NCBI GenBank assembly: GCA_019187405.1
Contig: JABAQZ010000014.1
Location: forward strand, 1 to 64,000
Length of the DNA stretch: 64,000 nucleotides
Reading direction: 5' to 3'
DNA from: Ignavibacteria bacterium
GTDB taxonomy: Bacteria > Bacteroidota > Ignavibacteria > Tepidaquicellales > Tepidaquicellaceae
Shown one piece after another: positions 103 through 19,983 of the stretch. Position 1 is the first letter of the stretch. Each line of letters starts with the position of its first letter. A program made the translations under genes and the position numbers. Below the pieces are notes generated by a model that had not been told where the DNA came from, searched no databases, and saw nothing but the letters and a program-made list of their open reading frames with translations.

Positions 103-219
103 ATTTCAACGTTTTGGACGGATGTGTAAATGACTTTAAATGACTATTTGATAAAATTTGTAATTAACCAGAACTTAGATCTTAATTCTAACCTATCAAA
201 ACCTCTCAAACCTTTAACA

Positions 220-270
220 GTGGCGTCAGGACTTCCGTCCTGACGCAAATACTTTTTCAAACTCAAAATC
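220..270 (-). repeat. REP-like palindrome with 51-bp direct repeat, copy 1
   Basis: Positions 223-246 form a perfect 10-bp stem (GCGTCAGGAC / GTCCTGACGC) around a 4-base loop that reads GGAA on the minus strand, a GNRA-type loop. The palindrome and about 25 bp of flank recur at 610-661. On the minus strand this copy holds the last codons and stop codon of the transposase remnant, so the REP palindrome sits across the 3' end of the gene thought to mobilise it. Confidence 0.85.
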
Positions 271-729
271 CCATTTGGTATTGACCTCAATTATACTATG
301 GTCTCCAAACATATAATTCCTTGCGCTTGAGTATTTCCAATCTTCCGGATTTAATACCAGTCCGGCTTTTACCGGATTGTAATGAACATAATTTACCTTT
401 GTCCTTAATACTCTATCGGTAATAATTACGACATCGTCAAATCTGTCCATCCAGAACTTAAAAGTCTGATTTTTATAACCAAGTGCATTTTGTCTAAGCT
501 GTTCAACAATTTCATTATAGCCATCCGCTTCCAGTAACTTTCTAATTTGGTTGAAGTAAATTTTTTAAAATCTCTCATGAAATCTGAAATGCTTTTTCCT
601 ATTTAATACAGTGGCGTAAGGACTTCCGTCCTGACGCAAATACTTTTTCAAACTCAAAATCATTACTGTTGTCGTTACGAAATAAACATGACCTTCCTTA
701 TCAAACAAACTTCTGTTTCTTAATCCCAT
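226..729 (-). pseudogene. REP-associated (Y1/IS200-like) transposase, broken
   Basis: Reading on the minus strand, an ATG at 729-727 behind a good Shine-Dalgarno (AGGAG at 742-738) starts MGLRNRSLFDKEG, the usual N-terminus of Bacteroidota/Ignavibacteria REP-associated tyrosine transposases. After about 23 codons the frame runs into a second copy of the gene's own 3' tail with its REP palindrome (610-661) and stops near 565. Homology resumes (GKSISDFMRDFKKFTSTK), shifts by one base, then continues in a frame that is open from about 450 to 226 (NYVHYNPVKAGLV, EDWKYSSARNY). The central segment that should carry the HUH metal-binding motif is gone. The protein cannot be functional. The family call is firm. 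That the tail replaced the middle of the gene is inferred from the repeat. Confidence 0.85.
610..661 (-). repeat. REP-like palindrome with 51-bp direct repeat, copy 2
   Basis: This is a near-identical copy of the unit at 220-270. The palindrome at 614-637 has one mismatch in its left arm (GCGTAAGGAC). It lies inside the transposase pseudogene where the catalytic centre should be encoded, so it probably marks the event that broke the gene. Confidence 0.85.
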
Positions 730-746
730 CGTATCATCTCCTTTAT

Positions 747-1140
747 TAAATTATCTGTGCAAGATAAGAATAGTTAAACTTCTATAAAATGTATTGCGTC
801 AGGACGAAAGTCCTGACGCAACGGTCTAAAGCTGAATGGAAACAAATATACCTATCCCTTAAGACCTCGTTACATTTCCGGTGAATAACATATCCTTTAA
901 CTCTTAATTTAGAAAGCGAACGATAGCATACAGTAACAGTGACCGGTCATAAAAACTTTATCCTCTCGTCCCCAATCTCCCCGCCGGATGGTGAGGCAAG
1001 CCTGTCACTCCTACAGCGGGTAAACCTTTGGCGGGAGATATCAGCAAATGAAAACTGTGCCTTACTTTAACAAAAAATCCCATTTAAGAAAAATCTAAAT
1101 ATTTCTCTAAAATTTTCGGTTTTGTATACAAAATATTAAA
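747..1140. other. Non-coding stretch with imperfect inverted repeats
   Basis: I see no credible gene here. Besides the REP palindrome at 795-820, an imperfect inverted repeat pairs ATCTCCCCGCC at 975-985 with GGCGGGAGAT at 1030-1039 around a 'gaggcaag' segment. A similar 'ccccgcc ... gaggcaagc' arrangement recurs at 3068-3097, which suggests a second small repeat family. Confidence 0.5.
795..820. repeat. REP-like palindrome, GAAA loop
   Basis: An 11-bp perfect stem (TGCGTCAGGAC / GTCCTGACGCA) closes a GAAA loop. It is the same family as the palindromes in and around the transposase pseudogene and is followed by 'acggtctaaa', which also follows the copy ending at 3198. Confidence 0.85.
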
Positions 1141-2950: not shown

Positions 2951-3166
2951 ATTTAATTCTAAATCAACTTTCTAAAGCTGGGGCTTTGGAAAGAGAAGGC
3001 TTAAAATGTATTGCGTCAGGACGAAAGTCCTGATGCCATAGTCTAAGACCCAATTCTCCTTACCAAGCCCCCCGCCAAAAAACAGGCGAGGCAAGCAGCT
3101 TGGTAAGGAAATTTAATTCTAAATCAACTTTCTAAAGCTGGGGCTTTGGAAAGAGAAGGCTTAAAA
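2951..3166. repeat. Two 56-bp direct repeats 160 bp apart
   Basis: The segment 2951-3006 (from 'atttaattct' to 'gaaggcttaaaa') recurs at 3111-3166 with no difference seen. Each copy holds an imperfect palindrome (CTTTCTAAAGC / GCTTTGGAAAG) and is followed by a REP-like GNRA palindrome. A separate inverted repeat, CCTTACCAAGC near 3059 with GCTTGGTAAGG near 3098, lies between them. The unit looks like a composite of small palindromic repeats that has been tandemly duplicated. No gene is present between 2907 and 3309. Confidence 0.75.
3012..3037. repeat. REP-like palindrome, GAAA loop
   Basis: The stem TGCGTCAGGAC / GTCCTGATGC around GAAA has one mismatch relative to the copy at 795-820. 'gtctaa' follows, as in the other copies. 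Confidence 0.8.
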
Positions 3167-3175
3167 AATATATAA

Positions 3176-3198
3176 CGTCAGGACGAAAGTCCTGATGC
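3176..3198. repeat. REP-like palindrome, GAAA loop, decayed outer stem
   Basis: CGTCAGGAC / GTCCTGATG around GAAA; the outer stem bases are degraded compared with the copy at 795-820. It is followed by 'caacggtctaaaa'. With the copies at 223, 614, 795 and 3012 this makes five members within 3 kb. Confidence 0.75.
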
Positions 3199-3309
3199 AA
3201 CGGTCTAAAACGGACATGATAATATCCTTACAATAATAATCAGTTGTAAAGTTTTTAAATTGTTACACAGAATTTAAATAAGTAATTTATTCAAATTCAA
3301 AATTAATTA

Positions 3310-12492: not shown

Positions 12493-13068
12493 TTAAAGTA
12501 TAGATTTAATTTCACTTTTTGTCATAATTTCTTTTGATTTCAAATAAAAACTATCTTCAGTCAGATTAAATATTTTAACAGCAAAATTCTTGTTGCATAA
12601 AGTCCCTTTCCTTATACCGTAATAATCTCTGAAAGAACTATAATTCCAATCTTCAATATTATCAACCAAACCTAAGATTACAGGAAGCTGATGAATATAT
12701 TTAAAACAGATAAATGCTTGATTTACTGATTTGTTTATAGCTTTACAGTGTGTGTTTTGAGTAAAGAGTGATCCGGTACGCTTTTCCTGAACATTAATTG
12801 CTTTAGCATATGAACTTAATAATAACTTGACCCCTTCACTCAATAAATTTCTTCCTTTTTTATCAAGAGAAACGGTTTGGTTATTTGCATAAATCATTAA
12901 ATTAAATTGAGAAGGAAGTAAACAATAAGAAAGTAAATCACAATTCGGATAAATGTATTTTCGTATTTTTCTGAGAAAGTATAAATAGTTTTCATGATTG
13001 AAAAAAATATTCTGTCTGTTATTTCCCTTGTTGTATAAATGAAACAAGCCTCCTTTAGAAAATTTCAT
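12493..13068 (-). CDS. Y1/REP-associated transposase-like protein lacking the HUH motif
   Basis: The 191-residue protein has the family scaffold: FHLYNKGNNRQNIFFNHENYLYFLRKI at the N-terminus, an SSYAKAINVQEKRTGSLFTQN block and the C-terminal YIHQLPVILGLV, EDWNYSSFRDYYG. In active members the segment after about residue 50 reads PNHFHL, supplying the metal-binding HUH pair. Here it is PSQFNL (Gln54, Asn56), so both histidines are lost. The tyrosine of YIH is kept. The reading frame is otherwise undamaged and the gene is framed by inverted repeats within 10 bases of both ends. It is either a recently killed transposase or one kept for DNA binding; the sequence does not decide. Confidence 0.8.
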   Translation of the reverse strand: MKFSKGGLFHLYNKGNNRQNIFFNHENYLYFLRKIRKYIYPNCDLLSYCLLPSQFNLMIYANNQTVSLDKKGRNLLSEGVKLLLSSYAKAINVQEKRTGSLFTQNTHCKAINKSVNQAFICFKYIHQLPVILGLVDNIEDWNYSSFRDYYGIRKGTLCNKNFAVKIFNLTEDSFYLKSKEIMTKSEIKSIL

Positions 13069-19295: not shown

Positions 19296-19721
19296 TTACA
19301 AGACTTTTTTAGCAAATTCATTTATTTCCTGTTGAAAAGTATGTTTTGTATGATATACGGACTGATTAGAGATATACTGATTTACTTTTTCGATCTGTGA
19401 TTCACTGACAGACAAAGCAAAATAACTTTTTTGCCAAGTAAATTTGGCTTCAATAAAATTATTCAGATTTACCCAGTGTGAAGTTTCACCTTTTATATTT
19501 TTAAAAATATCCGTGATTTTAAAATTTGGATTCAACAAGAACAATACATGAACGTGGTTGTTTTCCGCGCTAATATTTTTTATTTGGCATTTAAATTCAT
19601 TTTCAAATTTTAATTTTATTTTTTCCAACAATGCATCTTTAAAATTATCTAAGATTAAAGGCATAAAATCTTTTGTACCGAAAAAGCAGTGAATCCAGAT
19701 CCTTACAAACGGGTTAGTCAT
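19296..19721 (-). CDS. IS200/IS605-like Y1 transposase (TnpA family)
   Basis: The 141-residue protein has the size and motifs of TnpA: the HUH pair at His56-Val-His58 (NNHVHVLFLL), a WVN/FTWQKSYFALSVS block, and the candidate nucleophile Tyr116 in KVNQYISNQ, followed by HHTF-like basic residues (YHTKHTFQQE). All catalytic residues are present and the frame is intact, so it may be active. No tnpB is beside it. A 20-bp palindrome lies 26 bases upstream of the start and two more lie further upstream, pointing to an IS200-like or single-copy TnpA-REP arrangement in which the palindromes are the recognition sites. Confidence 0.85.
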   Translation of the reverse strand: MTNPFVRIWIHCFFGTKDFMPLILDNFKDALLEKIKLKFENEFKCQIKNISAENNHVHVLFLLNPNFKITDIFKNIKGETSHWVNLNNFIEAKFTWQKSYFALSVSESQIEKVNQYISNQSVYHTKHTFQQEINEFAKKVL

Positions 19722-19746
19722 GTTATTTTTATATTAAGTTAATGTA

Positions 19747-19766
19747 AAAACCGTTTAAACGGTTTT
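19747..19766. repeat. Palindrome AAAACCGTTTAAACGGTTTT, copy 1
   Basis: A perfect 20-bp palindrome lies 26 bases upstream of the IS200-like transposase start codon. Its sequence is shared with the copies at 19887 and 19952. Confidence 0.9.
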
Positions 19767-19885
19767 AAAAAAAATCAAACTTAAAATAAAAATTTCTTGA
19801 ATACAGAAAAATCAATTTTTAAATCTAATACAAAAAAATGCATTATCAAAAATATAGAAAAATAGCGAAAAGATATTCTTGATAC

Positions 19886-19983
19886 AAAAAACCGTTTAAA
19901 CGGTTTTTACACCCTTACCAGAGTCTACCTCTAAAAATCCCGGGTTCATAAAAAAACCGTTTAAACGGTTTTTACACCCTTAC
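19886..19983. repeat. Two 33-bp repeats with the same palindrome (copies 2 and 3)
   Basis: The palindrome recurs at 19887-19908 and 19952-19973, each time followed by 'acacccttac', giving two 33-bp repeats 65 bp apart. The second copy runs to the stop codon of the DUF1028 gene. Between 19767 and 19886 there is only AT-rich sequence with no gene. Confidence 0.9.

Follow-up and report, generated by a model that had tools for sequence, protein, structure and literature searches.

A REP-associated tyrosine transposase pseudogene whose REP-bearing 3' end recurs where its HUH segment should be

Introduction

REPs depend on RAYTs (REP-associated tyrosine transposases), and how either of them moves is an open question. 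The question takes a concrete form at the start of a 64,000-nucleotide stretch of contig JABAQZ010000014.1 from an Ignavibacteria bacterium, referred to here as the window, where the 3' end of a RAYT gene, including its REP, is found a second time inside the same gene. How did the end of the gene come to lie within it, and what has become of the gene?

The repeat and its source

A stretch of 54 nt occurs twice on the minus strand, at 217-270 and 608-661. The two occurrences are identical at 53 of 54 bases (BLAST E = 5e-22 within 2.5 kb). Both contain a REP hairpin, and the second is positioned inside the RAYT gene.

217..270, minus strand: copy 1, the REP-bearing 3' terminus of the RAYT gene, in the ancestral position; palindrome at 223-246 with loop GGAA; the G013 gene is arranged alike
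608..661, minus strand: copy 2, the inner copy of the 3' end; REP at 614-637 with one stem mismatch; in place of codons 24-73 of the intact homologue

The initial annotation gave this repeat as 51 bp, at 220-270 and 610-661. The repeat is real, but its length is 54 nt. The hairpin of the tail copy folds with -12.7 kcal/mol (z -4.85) and that of the inner copy with -8.2 kcal/mol (z -2.58). The inner copy has a base change of its own and extends past the hairpin into about 24 nt of coding sequence. A 29-nt probe, made of the non-palindromic half (the coding flank) and the hairpin foot, is found at two places in the 64 kb, which are the two copies, compared to none expected in shuffled sequences. 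No third place with the coding flank and the REP together was found in the 3.78-Mb genome, where 40 of 52 candidates were scored, and the first 2400 bases of the window contain no other duplicated segment of the RAYT gene.

The tail is the old position and the inner copy the derived one, since the RAYT gene of a related genome, G013, also has a REP at its end, with the same surroundings. The loop of the hairpin points to the source. Eleven REP sites in the genome have at most one mismatch to the pattern; the tail and the inner copy share the loop GGAA, whereas the other nine have GAAA, which argues that the inner copy came from the tail and not from a dispersed REP. On this sequence evidence the donor of the inner copy is the gene's own tail. 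The earlier description of the inner copy as a copy of the REP-bearing 3' tail is thus borne out by the loop, the G013 context and the 53/54 identity.

The locus lies 220 nt from the contig end, as might be expected of an assembly or binning artefact. The first 127 nt of the window also form, in exact overlap, an end of each of two other contigs, C32 and C33; beyond them the three sequences diverge, so that these 127 nt are either the end of a repeat or a branch of the assembly. An exact overlap of 127 nt suggests that the assembly k was near this value, far above the length of the 54-nt repeat, and a collapse of the two copies by the assembler, which had been named as the case that would undo the observation, therefore looks unlikely. 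Furthermore, the base change in the inner copy and the second, independent frame shift of the gene both speak against an artefact, which we regard as the least probable of the explanations considered here.

What the gene has lost

The RAYT gene runs on the minus strand from an ATG at 729 to a stop codon within the REP. Its intact homologue in G013, a genome of the same family, encodes a protein of 205 residues (L041), which scores 105.9 bits against the NCBIfam model REP_Tyr_transpos (NF047646, cut-off 80) and matches the solved TnpAREP chain 4er8_A with an E value of 0.00035. The assignment of the gene to the RAYT family, made earlier from the letters of the window, agrees with this score. 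Two pieces of the gene survive in the window.

661..729, minus strand: N-terminal RAYT piece, 23 codons; 72% identical to G013 residues 1-25 over 655-729
226..599, minus strand: C-terminal RAYT piece; includes the tyrosine motif region (YVHYNP) and is split over two frames that change near 545-550; 58% identical to G013 residues 79-188 at 253-582

The G013 protein aligns to the window piecewise, residues 1-25 to 655-729, residues 73-99 to 519-599 and residues 79-188 to 253-582, with identities of 56-72%. Residues 26-72, which include the HUH motif (PSHIHF), have no match in the window, and translation of 129-760 in all three minus-strand frames contains no HUH motif. The earlier proposal that the HUH segment had been replaced is consistent with both results. 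Counted in codons against G013, about 150 nt (codons 24-73) have been replaced by about 64 nt. The identity of the lost sequence is what we infer from the nearest intact homologue, at only 56-72% identity.

The tyrosine motif region (Y..[HN]NP) is retained as NYVHYNPVKAGL in the translated C-terminal piece, P0001. This piece covers model positions 97-146 of REP_Tyr_transpos and scores 50.1 bits, below the cut-off of 80 because only part of the protein is present. A Pfam search with the window pieces gave a single match below cut-off, to Ribonuc_2-5A (15 bits, cut-off 23.3), which was of no use. The frame changes twice, once at the insert and separately near 545-550; the single frameshift of the initial annotation is correct if the insert is left uncounted, but not if it is counted. 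The window gene is, as judged from its sequence, a RAYT pseudogene and not a working member of the family.

Family, DNA and protein searches of the window's own genome found no intact close homologue, so that the comparison with full-length homologues from the same genome that had been suggested found no close partner. The best other match to the G013 protein in this genome, on contig C4, is 32% identical over residues 9-173. The suggestion that the event was self-limiting fits the absence of an intact close homologue, but the frame shift, rather than the insertion, may have been what killed the gene first.

Two other transposase stretches were noted in the window. A RAYT-like stretch at 12622-13062, 29% identical to the G013 protein, lies in an open frame of 210 residues. 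The interval 19297-19971 contains a second Y1-type transposase, with a minus-strand match at 19362-19703; upstream of it the palindrome AAACCGTTTAAACGGTTT has three exact copies, at 19748, 19889 and 19954, where 0.01 would be expected.

The REPs of the genome

The RAYT gene is flanked by inverted REPs, as is typical of a member of this family, at 223-246 in its tail and at 794-821 upstream. Further along the window there is a composite array.

794..821, plus strand: REP hairpin upstream of the RAYT gene, in the opposite orientation; loop GAAA; -15.1 kcal/mol, z -8.34
2953..3211, plus strand: composite REP array of two units, with REP cores at 3013-3036 and 3175-3198; also present on contigs C3, C31 and C38

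The hairpin foot is GTATTGCGTC or GTATTTGCGTC in nine of the 13 oriented sites. The remaining feet are GTATTGTGTC (two sites on C3), GTATAGCGTC (C31) and ATATAACGTC (window 3177). The canonical foot tetranucleotide GT[AG]G, in the form of GTAG or GTGG, was found in none of the 13. An assignment of the repeats to the CGTC type was considered and rejected, as CGTC is part of the stem here; in the accessible part of a survey of such repeats, no RAYT was found flanked by CGTC units (PMC3733652). Since no intact close RAYT homologue was found in the genome, its REPs look orphaned of their enzyme.

Contig C31 (L033, 1068-1133 in G000:C31) carries a piece of this RAYT's HUH region (THLHIIPLMKIGESISDFMRD), flanked on one side by a REP array and on the other by the end of an Rhs-like open frame. 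It matches window 568-604 at 36 of 37 bases.

Related loci

The survey of relatives comprises 110 RAYT-like loci (L041-L070 and L154-L233) at 109 places, L050 and L189 being the same place. It includes three further RAYT-like genes from the genome of the window and leaves out matches in G067, G070 and G079 and the G016 fragments described below. A profile built from seven homologues matches all 110 loci, 74 nearly in full and 36 in part. Six stretches beside the REP pattern in G019, G026 and G028 were also compared with the profile, and none matches.

With the window included, repeats are present on both sides of the gene in 72 of 111 loci. A scan for repeats that touch the gene body flagged 22 of the 111, of which 20 were read singly; the other two are L189 and the window itself. 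Most of the flagged repeats lie upstream of the true start and entered the count because each open frame was read from one stop codon to the next. A tail copied in place of HUH was found in none of the 110 surveyed loci. The check proposed earlier, a search for further copies in which the tail repeat occupies this very point, thus found none either among these loci or in this genome.

Several relatives have REP-like hairpins within the gene. In L172, L173 and L191 they are in frame and lie at the loop GKSISDFMRD, which connects the HUH strand to the helix that follows and is adjoined by the right edge of the inner copy in the window. In L171 one such hairpin lies nearer the conserved W and a second close to the N-terminus; that of L195 follows the tyrosine region. 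In L201 (G030:C24) the second half of a RAYT (290 nt), with its REP, is present in a tandem duplicate that is 99% identical.

In G016 (L150-L153; contigs C14, C258 and C294) a RAYT C-terminal fragment is contained in a REP-bounded element of about 450 nt, of which there are seven full copies; over 301 nt, five of them show an identity that the tool rounds to 100%. G016 yielded no longer homologue of the fragment. RAYT 3' ends have thus been multiplied there as REP-bounded units. It is conceivable, but quite improbable, that a RAYT 3' end with its REP is a mobile unit in this bacterial family, spreading as the REP-bounded element seen in seven full copies in G016, and that its landing in its own gene silences the source and acts as a built-in brake.

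Origin of the inner copy

At the left edge of the inner copy, ATGAATTTTGA in G013 and L044 corresponds to GGGATTTTGAG in the tail, and the edge is one base short of a perfect ATTTTGA join. At the right edge a few bases cannot be assigned with certainty to either source. By a test for microhomology, which is a weak one, the junction matches the tail better than other local positions do in one of 14 homologues (L048); in G013 the best match is elsewhere.

The initial annotation offered gene conversion or re-insertion of a REP unit. A clean insertion predicts neither the coding flank of about 24 nt nor the loss of about 150 nt of target; compared with G013, this target is absent, unlike the outcome of a clean insertion of the IS200/IS605 type. 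If an intact RAYT had nonetheless catalysed the insertion, it would have cut single-stranded DNA next to the REP of its tail and joined the released piece to the gene that encodes it, the target being lost at the same time or later. The relatives with in-frame hairpins at the same loop are in keeping with such an event, as are the REPs on record inside tnpAREP genes of subclass 2.4 in the available text of PMC6006769. The copied tail ends in CACTGT, which may be compared with the cleavage by E. coli TnpAREP at C|T beside a REP, as given in the part of PMC8266576 that could be read. The left edge, however, has no C|T dinucleotide and includes coding sequence past the hairpin, and the missing 150 nt of target count against insertion as well. 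We consider catalysis by the RAYT unlikely.

A switch of template, or slippage, at the REP hairpin, in either one step or two, is preferred to insertion by the RAYT because the copy carries a coding flank and because about 150 nt of the target are gone. The strong hairpin in the donor tail and the right edge beside the loop at which relatives carry hairpins also speak for it. Against it count the weak microhomology result, the left join that is one base off, the unassigned bases at the right edge and the 56-72% identity of the nearest intact homologue. We give it roughly an even chance. A polymerase would stall at the REP hairpin, switch template within the RAYT gene, copy about 54-60 nt of the tail and rejoin. 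In the single-event version the copying of the tail and the loss of the target would occur together. In the two-event version the tail would first be copied into the loop after HUH, where hairpins are found in frame in relatives, and the sequence between two short repeats, such as ATTTTGA, would then be deleted. Either way the nuclease activity would be removed, and we infer that the copying was by host DNA synthesis and not by the transposase. One step and two steps cannot be separated from one copy in one genome.

Two further routes to the same arrangement have to be weighed against template switching. The gene might have been duplicated in tandem and then suffered two deletions, the one fusing the N-terminus to the tail and the other eliminating the second copy's 5' half. 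RAYT 3' ends are indeed duplicated beside the gene in L050, L201 and L220, and the piece of window 568-604 that recurs beside a REP array on C31 (36/37 identical) implies that a second copy or a fragment existed. Such a history requires three events, however, and no other duplicated gene segment is present in the first 2400 bases; it is decidedly unlikely. Ectopic gene conversion, with the REP of the tail acting on one that already lay inside the gene, would agree with the intragenic REPs of relatives and with the near identity of the two copies (53/54), but it presupposes an earlier inner REP with homologous flanks, the tract in common is short and the lost target is left unexplained. Its probability appears to be very low.

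A RAYT broken by its own REP-bearing tail is a concrete route by which a REP family may lose its enzyme, and the product of template switching would leave the REP family of this genome without one. The case is that of one pseudogene in one draft genome.

Comparison with known systems

No published report of a RAYT active site replaced by the gene's own tail was found in the literature within reach, beyond which lie most subscription papers, figures and supplements. The insertion of hairpins into RAYT genes and the copying of RAYT 3' ends are already known; what sets the present case apart is the loss of the active site.

According to the accessible text of PMC6006769, cognate REPs lie in frame inside tnpAREP genes of subclass 2.4. 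By position the window gene is similar, with a REP within the transposase gene, in the loop after HUH and between HUH and Y. In subclass 2.4 the frame is kept and both HUH and Y are intact, whereas the window gene has a broken frame and no longer contains the HUH segment.

Four cases in which RAYT 3' ends have been integrated into BIMEs are described in the portion of PMC2817692 available to us. There, as in the window, the 3' end of the gene has been copied to a new place together with a REP; the BIME copies, however, are in a neighboring REP array and the window copy is inside the gene itself. The available part of PMC3686654 describes RAYTs that have become pseudogenes or have been lost, with decay of the REPs and REPs that are left orphaned. 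The window resembles this situation in having an inactive RAYT and leftover cognate REPs. It differs from it in that a likely cause of the inactivation is visible in the gene.
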